Origin: Bacteroidota bacterium
Lineage (GTDB): Bacteria; Bacteroidota; Ignavibacteria; Ignavibacteriales; Ignavibacteriaceae
Assembly (NCBI GenBank): GCA_021813585.1
Contig: JAKAJV010000109.1
Location: 1-49,536 of the forward strand
Reading direction: 5' to 3'
Length of the DNA stretch: 49,536 nucleotides
The notes below the pieces were generated by a model. It saw only the letters and a program-made list of their open reading frames with translations, did no database searches and was not told the origin of the DNA. The position numbers and the translations under genes were made by a program. This document shows positions 3,084 to 11,976 of the stretch, piece by piece. Each line of letters begins with the position of its first letter. Position 1 is the stretch's first letter.

Positions 3084-6000
3084 ATGATAATTTCAGAATT
3101 AAAATTTTCCTTTAAAATTTTCACTTCTCTTTGCATTCGAATTTGTTTTTTAGAACTACTTCTTTACTCCGCTACAATAAGCGCGCAGCTTCTTCATTTC
3201 AGCCATTATACAACAAGCCAGGGCTTGCTTTCCAATAACATACTGTCTATGTGCCAGGATGATAAAGGCAGGTTGTGGATAGGCACCGGAGACGGTATAA
3301 GTATTTATAACGGCGAGTCATTCAAGAATCTTACTCCGGCCAATGGATTATCAGCTCCGATGGTTAACGCGATGCTTGTTGATAAATTTAACAAGGGAGT
3401 AATATGGATCGGGACAAACGGCGGCGGTTTAGATAAATATGAGGCAGGAAAAATCCGCACAATTTCCATTGGCAATTCCGGCGCTTCAAATAGAATAAAT
3501 TCTATAGCTGAAGATGGTAAAGGTATTCTCTGGCTTGCTACAGACAAGGGAGTATATCTGGTTTACAAAAATAAAGAAAAGAGGTTTAGACCCGATCTTT
3601 TTTCCGAAGGAACTAATGCCATAGCATCAACCGGCGGTAAGGTTATAATTCCTCTACATAAAAACCTGGTTTATTTTATTCACGAGGATAACGGTAAGAT
3701 TAATTCATTAAAGCTGCCTTTGGAAAGCGGCGAAGAAATATGGTCGATAAGTGTTGAAAAGAACGGAGCTGTTTGGATAGGTACTTCACGTGGAAAGTTA
3801 TTTAAGTTATTCGATAGAAAAATACGTGAAATAAATCTGCATATAAAAGGAACTGTTTTATTCGCTGCAAAGTATTACAACAATGTTTTGTGGATCGGAA
3901 CAGGCGAGGGAATCTTTAAATATCAAGACTCAACACTTAAGAAAGAAAGCTATACCAGGATTACGGAGGCAAACGGTTTGCCCGGCAGGGATATTAATTG
4001 CGGATTGATAGACAGCGAAGGGGAGCTCTGGTTCGGTTTGTGGTCGAACGGTTTAGTGAAATTATCTAACGGGAATATTTATAGGTTTTACGGAAAATTT
4101 TCCAGTCCTATCCCGGATAATTCAAAATCGGTTAAAGACGAGCATGATCATATATGGTGCGTTGAAAAAAAAGGCTTGCTGGAAATATGGAAAACCGGCG
4201 GCGATCTTATAATGAGCAGCTATCACCGGCTGCTAAGTGAAGGCTCCAGTGACGAATTGGAAATAATTAAAATTGATTATCTGGGAAGATTGATTGCCGG
4301 CTTTAACAGCGGTAAAATAAATTATTATAAAATTATTCACCCGCCAAACGGACCGTCGTCTATTAAAGAGCTCATCAGCGTTCAGACCCCATTCGACTAC
4401 TCGGCCGGTAATTTATTATACATTTTCCCCGGCATGAAAGGAAAGCTCTGGTGTAGTGTTAACGGAGTTGGCGTATGCTCGTTTTATCCTTTCGGTAAAA
4501 AATCAAAAGCGCATCTGTTTGCCGCAGCGGAAGGACTTTCGAGTAAATCCGTTAGAGTAATTTATGAGGATAGTAAAAATAATTTTTGGTTTGGCGGATT
4601 CGATAAAGGCTTAACGGAATTAACAAAAGAAGGTAACGGCAAATGGGCTAACCGGCTGTATACGCGCAAAGATGGCTTACCCGATAATTATATCCGTTCG
4701 ATTACTGAAGACAACAAAGGCAGACTATGGGTAGGAACGCGTTACAGCGGAATAGCAGTTCTGAATAATAACCAATTTAAAATTATAGACATCAAGGACG
4801 GGTTGTTAAGCGACGGTATTTGGTGCATGACAAAAGAAACCGGCAATAACAAAATAATAGGCACACAACTTGGATTGCAAAAACTATCTGCAAGCAAAAG
4901 TAAATTTCATATTCAAAATCTGCTTTTCGGCCAGCCGTGCTATTCTTGCGGCGAAACTACTAACGGGCTAATCTGGGCGTCGACCGAAAAAAACATTACC
5001 GTTATAGATGAGCAAAATAAGTCCGTTGTTAACGTTCCGCCAAAAATATTTATATCAAAAGTACTGGTTAACGGGCGCGAGATAAAATCATATAGAAACA
5101 TCGATCTTGATTATCTCCAGAATACATTTACTTTTGATTTTAACGGCATTAGCTTAAGATACGGCCGGTTGTTGAGCTACAAATATATTCTAAAAGGGGC
5201 CGGCAATACATGGCATAAGGTTGATGGCCAGCATGCAGTAACTTACGCTTCGCTTCGCCCCGGTAATTATGAGTTCGAAGTTGAAGCTATCAATCCAAAC
5301 GGCGCAGAGAGCGTTAAGCCTGCAGTGTTTCTGTTCTCAATTGAGCCGCCGGTTTGGCTAAGGTGGTGGTTTATTACTTCAGCATTTCTCATTCTCGGTA
5401 CATTAATATTTCTAGTTATTAGGATCAGAATAAACCGGATGCTTGAAATAGAAAAAGTAAAAGGTAGAATAGCAACAGACCTTCATGATGATATAGGTTC
5501 CGGTTTAACTAGAATTGTTATAGCTGCGGACGTGGCTCTTAAGCAAATGGAATCGGCCGGTTCGCTTAAAGATACCGGCGCAACTTTAGATGAACGAAAT
5601 GGATCAAAGAATTATTCAATTATAGATTTAATTAAAAAGATAGGAAAGCACGCCAGGCAGCTTGTAGACGATATGAGCGATGTAGTTTGGTCTATTGATC
5701 CTAAAAATAAAAAGATTTCTGATTTGCTTTCGCATCTCAGGCCGTATGTTTTAGATATTTGCGAATCAAGTGAAATATCGGTTGAATTCATACTAAGCGA
5801 GAAAATTTTAGAAACCGAAATTAATCCCGAAACGCTTCGTTCTCTGCTGCTGATAGCCAAAGAAGCTTCAAACAACTCGGTCAAGCATTCAGGATGCGAC
5901 AGGCTTAGGATCGAATTATCAATCGAGGGGAATTGCGTTATGCTAAAGGTGATAGATAACGGGAAAGGATTTGACGCCGGTAAAATTAGTCTTGGTTATG

Positions 6001-9872: not shown

Positions 9873-9935
9873 TTGATAATTCTTTCTAGTATAAAATTAA
9901 AGTGAATTTTTTAAATTTGAAAAGTTGAGGCAGCA

Positions 9936-10190
9936 ATGAAATTAAAGCTTAAGTATTTTTTATCGTTTAAGCCAGTAGTAATAGCATGCATCATCTCTTT
10001 CACCGCGTATGCACAAATTCCCGATCCAAGCTTCGAAAGCTGGGCATCGGGAAACCCCACCGGTTGGGCTATAACGAACAGCCCATCATTTAAAACCGTT
10101 ACACAAACTTCGGATGCTTACGCCGGTTTATATGCAGCTAAAGGTGAAACAATTAGTATTAATGGAATTATTATACCTCTTTCAATTTAA
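9936..10190 (+). pseudogene. Truncated secreted protein (N-terminal fragment)
   Basis: Only 84 residues: a signal peptide (VVIACIISFTAYAQ) followed by IPDPSFESWASGNPTGW and a TQTSDAYAGLYAAKG segment. This is the usual first ~60 residues of larger Bacteroidota/Ignavibacteria secreted proteins in which a carbohydrate-binding-like beta sandwich opens with N-x-x-F-E-x-W and continues for a few hundred residues, often to a T9SS tail. Here the frame stops at 10188-10190 right after ETISINGIIIP, and I could not find a continuation in the other two forward frames over the next ~100 bases. The simplest reading is a 3'-deleted remnant. It might instead be a small exported protein, but it lacks most of the expected fold. 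Confidence 0.6.
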
Positions 10191-10260
10191 TCCTCAAGTT
10201 GGAAAATCCTAATCCAATTCTTTATATTTACATCCAAAATTATCGTGCTTTTTTTTGTGG

Positions 10261-10278
10261 AAGAATAAAATTATTCTT
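10261..10278. repeat. Perfect A/T-rich inverted repeat
   Basis: AAGAATAA and TTATTCTT are separated by two bases. It lies in the 176-base gap between the truncated gene and the HNH frame. It could be a weak hairpin terminator for the upstream transcript or a protein binding site. Nothing else recognisable is in this gap apart from a GGAGG at 10324-10328. Confidence 0.4.
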
Positions 10279-10366
10279 GATTTCTAGAATGACGGTATAA
10301 AGCAAAATTGAGAAGATAATAACGGAGGCCGACTTCGAAACTGCGAAACATGTAAACGGTAAGCTT

Positions 10367-10867
10367 AATGCGAAAGTATTAATTCTTAATCAAAGTTACG
10401 AACCTTTAACCATTTGCAACATAAAAAAGGCAATTATACTAATATACCTGGGCAAGGCAGACCTTGTTAGAAACGACGACAGGAAAGAACTGCACAGCGT
10501 TAAGACAAGTTTTCCCTGGCCGAGCATTATAAAATTAAACCACTATATAAACGTCCCGTATAAAAAGGTAGTGCTTACTCGTAAAAATATTCTTAGGCGC
10601 GATTCTTATAAATGCTCATACTGCGGCAGGAGCGACCTCCCGTTAACGATTGATCATGTAGTCCCGAAATCCAAAGGCGGTGCCGATTCATGGGAGAACC
10701 TGGTTTGTGCTTGTACATCATGCAATAATAAGAAAGGCGACCGCACCCCGGATGAAGCGAAAATGATTCTTCATAATAAGCCGTTTAAGCCCAGCCACAT
10801 TATGTTTATAAAGCATGTGGTAGGCAAACTTGACGAGAACTGGAAGCCTTACCTTTATCTTTCTTAG
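10367..10867 (+). CDS. HNH endonuclease with unresolved start
   Basis: The frame encodes a small HNH nuclease of a type common in Bacteroidota. The N-terminal part reads VLILNQSYEPLTICNIKKAI and the nuclease domain has a first zinc pair (CSYCG), the HNH motif (TIDHVVPKSKGG, then ENLV and CNNKKG) and a second Cys pair (CACTSC). The C terminus is complete (GKLDENWKPYLYLS). The frame is open from 10301 but has no ATG, GTG or TTG until GTG 10571, which would remove the conserved first 68 residues; I therefore begin at the edge of recognisable similarity. A perfect GGAGG at 10324-10328 is not followed by a start codon. An out-of-frame ATG at 10368-10370 would fit if one base were missing just after it. 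The biological target of this family is unknown. Confidence 0.75.
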   Translation, partial: NAKVLILNQSYEPLTICNIKKAIILIYLGKADLVRNDDRKELHSVKTSFPWPSIIKLNHYINVPYKKVVLTRKNILRRDSYKCSYCGRSDLPLTIDHVVPKSKGGADSWENLVCACTSCNNKKGDRTPDEAKMILHNKPFKPSHIMFIKHVVGKLDENWKPYLYLS

Positions 10868-10961
10868 GTTTTTGAAAAGCATAAAAATTATTTTTAAAAC
10901 AATTTATTGGTAAATAAATTATTGAGTTATTTATCAAGTTTATTTAGACCATTATTATTAT

Positions 10962-10989
10962 TTTTCACTGCATCATTTAATATTATATT
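10962..10989 (+). promoter_or_regulatory. Candidate promoter of trpS and the long downstream run
   Basis: TTTTCA (10962-10967) and TATATT (10984-10989) are 16 bases apart, four and five matches to the sigma-70 consensus. The -10-like box ends six bases before the trpS ATG and no Shine-Dalgarno is visible, so the transcript could be leaderless. The surrounding ~128 bases are very A/T rich and hold no other signal I can support. Confidence 0.35.
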
Positions 10990-10995
10990 CTAATT

Positions 10996-11976
10996 ATGGC
11001 AAAAAAAAGAATTCTAAGCGGAATGCGCCCTACGGGAAAATTGCACATCGGTCATTATGTTGGCGCTCTTGAAAATTGGATTAAACTTCAGGATGAATAT
11101 GAAAGCTTCCATCTAATAGCCGATTACCATGTACTAACCACCAAGCTGGAAACGAACGATATTTACCAGGACTCGATAGATATGCTGATTGACTGGCTGG
11201 CTGCGGGACTGGACCCAGTTAAAAGCCCTATGTTCAGGCAGTCGAAAATTAAAGAGCATACCGAGCTTCATCTTTTGTTCAGCATGCTTATTACAGTAAA
11301 TCGGCTGGAAAGAAATCCTACTTTAAAAGACCAGATAAGGGATTTGAATATTGAGCAGGTAATATACGGTCATCTCGGCTACCCGGTTCTTCAATCGGCA
11401 GACATTCTGCTCTATAAAGGCAACGCTGTGCCTGTTGGAGATGACCAGGTTCCCCATATCGAAATCTCCAGGGAAATTGCCAGAAGGTTTAATAACCAGT
11501 ACGGCAATGTCTTCCCGGAACCGGAGCCGCTTTTAACGCAGTTTGCCAGACTGCCTGGTCTAGACGGCGGCGCGAAGATGAGCAAGTCTTTGAACAATAC
11601 AATACTTCTTTCCGATTCGCCGGAAGTAGTAAAGTCAAAATTAAAGAAGGCGGTTACCGATCCGAATAAGATTAGGAAAGGCGATCCCGGCAACCCGGAT
11701 ATATGCTTGGTCTTCGCTTACCACAAAAAATTTAACGATGCCGAAGTGCAGGAGATTGACAGCGGCTGCCGTTCCGGCGCGCTTGGATGCGTTGATTGTA
11801 AAATGAGATGCGCTGCAAAAATTTCTCTAATGCTAGAACCGATTATTGAAAGAAGAAAATATTACGAGCAAAGAATGGACGAAGTTGAAGATATACTTCG
11901 CCAAGGCGAACAAAGAGCGAAGCTTGTTGCGGAAGAAACTATGGCTGAAGTACGCGATAAAATGAAACTAGGTTAA
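10996..11976 (+). CDS. trpS: Tryptophanyl-tRNA synthetase
   Basis: Class I aminoacyl-tRNA synthetase of 326 residues that charges tRNA-Trp. The N terminus ILSGMRPTGKLHIGHYVGAL contains the HIGH signature used in ATP binding. GDDQVPHIEISREIARRFN lies in the central tryptophan-binding half, and GAKMSKSLNNTI is the KMSKS loop. Length is standard for bacterial TrpRS. The ATG at 10996 puts the catalytic fold at once at the N terminus, as in homologues, and there is no ribosome binding site in front of it. The scpA gene starts two bases after its stop, and trpS is the first of 18 closely packed genes. Confidence 0.97.
   Translation: MAKKRILSGMRPTGKLHIGHYVGALENWIKLQDEYESFHLIADYHVLTTKLETNDIYQDSIDMLIDWLAAGLDPVKSPMFRQSKIKEHTELHLLFSMLITVNRLERNPTLKDQIRDLNIEQVIYGHLGYPVLQSADILLYKGNAVPVGDDQVPHIEISREIARRFNNQYGNVFPEPEPLLTQFARLPGLDGGAKMSKSLNNTILLSDSPEVVKSKLKKAVTDPNKIRKGDPGNPDICLVFAYHKKFNDAEVQEIDSGCRSGALGCVDCKMRCAAKISLMLEPIIERRKYYEQRMDEVEDILRQGEQRAKLVAEETMAEVRDKMKLG

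Follow-up and report, generated by a model that had tools for sequence, protein, structure and literature searches.

The DNA stretch analyzed here (the window, 49,536 nucleotides) is one contig of a 4.54-Mb draft genome of a member of the Ignavibacteriaceae. On its forward strand, the frame of an HNH nuclease gene is open for 188 codons at positions 10301 to 10867 and is bounded upstream by an in-frame TAA stop codon at 10298 to 10300. In agreement with the original prediction, the first ATG, GTG, or TTG codon in this frame is the GTG at 10571, and both a GGAGG sequence at 10324 to 10328 and an out-of-frame ATG at 10368 to 10370 are present. GGAGG, which the sequence and the class comparison described below identify as a Shine-Dalgarno core, is separated by 5 nt from a downstream TTC GAA, a layout that recurs in relatives. 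On the basis of that comparison, the TTC codon at 10334 to 10336 (UUC in the mRNA) is proposed to be the start codon, from which a coding sequence of 177 codons plus stop would run to 10867 in the conserved frame. Positions 10334 to 10384 encode a class-specific N-terminal extension that is conserved past its first seven codons (NGKLNAKV), so that conservation begins at NGKLNAK, 5' of the VLILNQ motif at which it had been predicted to start. The HNH domain (PF01844) is encoded at 10613 to 10744. A neighboring gene on the same strand at 10996 to 11976, which lies outside the present claim, codes for a class I tRNA synthetase of the Trp/Tyr type (PF00579). The region at 9936 to 10300, 5' of the HNH gene, was unlike the upstream sequence of the aligned genus members and contained an ORF of 84 codons that matched no Pfam family; a perfect palindrome, AAGAATAAAATTATTCTT, was located at 10261 to 10278.

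The predicted identity of the gene product was borne out by profile searches, which gave matches to PF01844 (60.2 bits versus a curated cut-off of 21.4; E value, 2.2e-16 to 2.6e-16) and PF14279 (55.3 bits versus a curated cut-off of 27.5; E value, 6.3e-15). The gene product is a predicted small HNH nuclease. Membership in the IscB (NF040563) and Cas9 (TIGR01865) families was rejected, with scores of 75.2 and 29.6 bits under the curated cut-offs of 175 and 100, respectively. The top sequence match in the PDB was TbaIscB (9k30; E value, 1.3e-17) over residues 84 to 152, and the PDB matches listed (IscB, Cas9, and 4h9d) all started at or beyond residue 82, in the HNH part. Foldseek likewise returned HNH-containing entries (Cas9, McrA, and 4h9d), and a search of a defence-system library gave 58 families at an E value of 0.01 or lower, of which the 25 listed matched mostly the HNH part. 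The protein thus shares the HNH core with known HNH nucleases (Pfam HNH/HNH_5 and the IscB, Cas9, and McrA domains). The mean pLDDT of an AlphaFold2 model was 86.6, with residues 1 to 4 below 50 and a weaker block at approximately residues 71 to 80.

Protein matches (E value of 0.001 or lower) were obtained in 56 of 59 genomes searched, a few of them (e.g. G034 and G037) partial only, and in 191 of 197 Ignavibacteria genomes. Because nearly every genome of the class carries it, the nuclease may have a housekeeping task. The 5' ends of the gene were read in 30 loci, then in 80 named loci, and then across a class-wide spread, which amounted to 165 distinct loci after duplicate removal and covered 23 of the 27 sampled families of the class. 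TTC was present in 30/30 and 80/80 of the loci extracted before TTC served as a criterion. A strict rule was then applied, by which an in-frame TTC past the last stop codon had to lie 3 to 10 nt 3' of GGAG, GAGG, or AGGA. This arrangement was found in 153 of the 165 class loci, with observed gaps between core and TTC of 4 to 10 nt. In nine of the other 12 loci, TTC is retained and the core is weaker (L018, L084, L097, L173, L207, L321, L324, L336, and L337), and the remaining three (L212, L215, and L332) are ambiguous. In the 11 loci of the genus itself (L002 to L012), the check for a normal start codon in close relatives, which had been put forward with the original prediction, revealed none.

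In a check that was blind to TTC, the site was set by AGGAGG, GGAGG, or AGGAG alone, and the codon 3 to 11 nt downstream in frame was recorded. TTC was found in 129 of 136 loci placed in this way, TTT in 2, and ATG in 0. When TTC at core spacing was scored by frame, it fell in the gene frame in 119 of 126 loci and in the other two frames in 5 and 13. A count of codons in the core window over 166 rows (165 distinct loci) gave 153 TTC, 8 TTT, 1 ATG, 3 GTG, and 2 TTG. The column entropies were zero at TTC, partly by construction because the loci were positioned by this codon. In the class loci, TTC is located 16 to 71 codons 5' of the LN of the protein core, and it is therefore apparent that TTC moves together with the ribosome-binding site. 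Phenylalanine codons elsewhere in the HNH genes were mostly TTT (302, versus 193 TTC); the fixed C is thus not explained by retention of phenylalanine. Among 85 loci with 17-codon spacing, which were selected by TTC, the codon after TTC was GAA in 76, codons +2 to +6 varied freely, and the preceding codon was variable (GTC in 47).

Divergence around the codon changed in character at TTC. The differences at the first, second, and third codon positions were 0.56, 0.59, and 0.50 before TTC, without a coding pattern, and 0.25, 0.10, and 0.60 at codons +7 to +16, which is a coding pattern; codons +2 to +6 were near saturation (0.62, 0.61, and 0.67). In-frame ATG, GTG, or TTG codons between the last stop and TTC were absent in 121 of the 153 strict loci. 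The other 32 contain such a codon, within 6 codons of TTC in nine cases, and judging from the sequence some of these species could start there. TAA was often found two codons 5' of TTC. Since TAA or TAG is followed directly by GTC TTC in many loci, translation of those genes has to start at GTC or later. Taken together, the comparison argues that translation of the HNH gene starts at the UUC at 10334 to 10336, and we regard this start as probable.

The original prediction had listed several ways to account for the missing start codon. A very rare start was the right kind of option, and the codons named for it were the wrong ones: the ATT at 10307 sits 5' of the ribosome-binding site and is not conserved, and the CTG at 10448 lies inside the conserved core and is not conserved either. 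The ATG at 10368 is formed by a pair of Asn-Ala codons (AAT GCN) and is lost where relatives use AAC or AAT TCA, which speaks against its use as a start. The absent start codon is also the sole observation in favor of a missing assembly base or a pseudogene. Independent assemblies of many species, including single-contig genomes, show an identical layout with open and conserved frames, and such an error or decay is extremely improbable.

Programmed frameshifting or translational coupling, in which a canonical start in another frame or an upstream gene is used and the frame is shifted near UUC, was evaluated in the 148 loci where stop codons close each of the three frames. Some upstream canonical codon was open in at least one frame in 95 of these, as this mechanism would need; in the other 53, no canonical codon was open in any frame, so that initiation at a canonical codon with a later change of frame is excluded there. 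Recoding, as raised in the original prediction, was accordingly eliminated in 53 of the 153 strict loci, an exclusion that does not extend to every locus. An upstream ORF of at least 80 codons was present in 88 of the 102 loci whose available sequence was long enough. The ends of these ORFs are scattered over all frames, between 390 nt 5' and 88 nt 3' of TTC; this variability indicates that coupling is not general. Overall, we consider a shift of frame or coupling very unlikely.

The conserved TTC might also be the binding site of a regulator, either a protein or a small RNA, with translation starting at a neighboring weak codon that varies among species, such as GTC. GTC is the codon immediately 5' of TTC in 59 of 120 loci, and it is a proven start codon in sigR (PMC5472188). 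GTC is missing, though, in about half of the loci and is replaced by GAC in the present gene, and the gap of 4 to 10 nt from the core suits TTC. No Rfam family was matched in 9900 to 11000, and no folding excess was detected at the leader (mean z of 0.02 against mononucleotide shuffles in 40 loci sampled from the 120), by which a structured leader was rejected as well. A regulator site with a variable start nearby is thus improbable, at a level somewhat above that of a frameshift.

As a control, 827 kb of the own genome (18%), with 662 closed coding ORFs, was scanned. The region 5' of the first canonical start scored highest for coding in the HNH gene (24.8 nats; runner-up, 23.5), and this gene alone paired a high score of this kind with TTC at ribosome-binding spacing. 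Six other ORFs have TTC at such spacing, each 1 to 3 codons 5' of a canonical start, and another 25 carry coding-like sequence of more than 6 nats before the first canonical start, none of them with such a TTC. Thus, no other UUC-start gene was found in the 827 kb (18%) scanned. Nine of the 25 were checked against Pfam: they included prfB, a LuxR-type protein, an O-antigen ligase, a cyclophilin, a DNA methylase, and HEPN proteins, and three (L247, L249, and L250:12065-12337) gave no match over the Pfam cut-off. The recovery of prfB (PCRF and RF-1 domains) served as an unplanned positive control. The main frame of this release factor 2 gene (L308:4088-5131) has no canonical start, as expected because prfB is known for its programmed frameshift. 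In one HEPN-domain ORF (L250:4930-5331), the apparent ATG at 4930 is cut off by an in-frame TAA immediately 5' of the open stretch; this gene is possibly broken.

Of 223 genes sampled from this genome, only 12 have GGAGG or AGGAGG 5' of the first ATG of the open frame, where the ATG may not be the true start in each case. The ribosome-binding site of the HNH gene therefore looks unusually strong for its genome. In the same genomes, infC served as a positive control: of the 13 infC loci found, six were read (L369 to L374), and each of them begins with ATC behind a GAGG or AGG core. In E. coli, infC, the gene for initiation factor IF3, has a start codon of the AUU/AUC type and is regulated. The infC gene is similar to the HNH gene in having a conserved non-canonical start codon behind a ribosome-binding core, and differs in that ATC is one base and UUC two bases off AUG.

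In Streptomyces, translation of sigR starts at GTC behind an extended AGGAGGTG ribosome-binding site and is under repression by IF3 (PMC5472188); 32 of 34 species have GTC and the other 2 have GTT. The sigR gene resembles the HNH gene in carrying a non-canonical codon behind a strong ribosome-binding site that is conserved among species and was missed by annotation. It differs in that a sigma factor gene of one genus with an experimentally proven GTC/GTT start stands against a nuclease gene of a whole class whose UUC start is derived from sequence comparison. The closest precedents for the UUC start are infC and Streptomyces sigR, both of which are linked to IF3. The HNH gene fits the pattern of these two genes, in which a codon other than ATG, GTG, or TTG is conserved at ribosome-binding spacing, and this suggests that its putative start belongs to the known kind of conserved non-canonical start codons. 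No recognizable report of a natural UUC/TTC start in bacteria was found among the literature matches listed, which consisted partly of titles and the beginnings of abstracts.

In the proposed mechanism, the strong Shine-Dalgarno sequence would position the ribosome at UUC, initiation there would be inefficient, and the level of the nuclease would consequently be low. By analogy with infC and Streptomyces sigR, the codon check of IF3 would act on the UUC start, and a relaxed check would lead to more nuclease synthesis. The first residue would be either fMet or Phe. In vitro experiments with E. coli components, in which UUC served as the wrong-codon control, gave no initiation complex at UUC in the presence of IF3 and productive 70S complexes in its absence (PMC7907450). 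The failure at UUC with IF3 present counts against a UUC start. An IF3-checked start is preferred because IF3 governs both UUC in vitro and the GTC of sigR. We infer that the explanation as a whole, an inefficient UUC start after a strong Shine-Dalgarno sequence that keeps the nuclease level low and is probably checked by IF3, is likely, almost to the same degree as the UUC start itself. Control by IF3 taken as a separate claim remains tentative, somewhat short of even chances. IF3 was present as a single copy in all 13 genomes searched (one match in each), and an extra IF3 copy was rejected on these grounds. An observation against an IF3-checked weak start is that a merely weak codon should drift, as in sigR, and UUC stays.

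The constancy of the codon would be accounted for if UUC were read by phenylalanyl-tRNA (anticodon GAA) or a special initiator tRNA, so that the protein begins with phenylalanine. The kept C in the third position, which forms a Watson-Crick pair with G34, and the absence of drift from UUC would both follow. The tRNA complement argues in the other direction: the sole tRNA with a GAA anticodon among the 42 tRNA matches in the own genome, a draft set that may be incomplete, is an elongator-like tRNA-Phe, and 18 of the 21 genomes that gave a match yielded no second full-length initiator tRNA. When arms combining a GAA anticodon and GC pairs of the initiator type were searched for, 0 perfect and 54 one-mismatch matches were obtained (30 with the reversed pattern), and no extra methionyl-tRNA formyltransferase was found, with one match in the own genome. 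A weak tRNA match of 30.1 bits (L072; G000:C105:19566-19638), which was not called by ARAGORN and lies near an intact tRNA-Cys gene, looks like a degenerate tRNA-Cys. Initiation with phenylalanine is thus unlikely, and is still the least improbable of the alternatives considered here. If true, reading of UUC as a start by phenylalanyl-tRNA or some other dedicated system would be the most direct account of the exact UUC and would represent natural non-methionine initiation in bacteria, retained class-wide for one nuclease gene, possibly with an unstable N-terminal phenylalanine.

Outside the class, homologs mostly have ordinary start codons. In other classes of the phylum, ATG or GTG was found near the core in 16 of 18 anchored loci, in all four further loci (L192 and L194 to L196), and in 28 of 29 loci of a second anchored set, with overlap between the samples. 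Family f36 stands apart: its two genomes (L225 and L226/L278) have GGAGG-N7-TTC AGT or GGAGG-N9-TTC AGT, although ATG or GTG starts were seen in the rest of the loci read from the class to which f36 belongs. In a tree of 46 proteins, the f36 sequence grouped with ATG-start proteins and apart from the Ignavibacteria, which formed one side of a branch with support of 94/79 and were recovered in 97% of bootstrap trees. This placement implies that the use of UUC either arose twice or predates the class. An in-frame TTC AGC or TTC AGT was also seen near the canonical start in L267, L270, and L271 (f30), L282 (f50), and L285 and L288 (f47). Its occurrence in these leaders is either coincidental or a remnant of UUC initiation from an earlier time.

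For annotation, the consequence is that a search restricted to ATG, GTG, and TTG starts will either miss the N-terminal third of the protein or present the gene as apparently defective. For the Ignavibacteria, a codon two bases off AUG has apparently been kept as a start codon across one bacterial class. The UUC gene would therefore provide a simple natural test of how the choice of start codon is controlled and of protein starts that lack methionine, and it raises the question of why a nuclease stays under such a brake.
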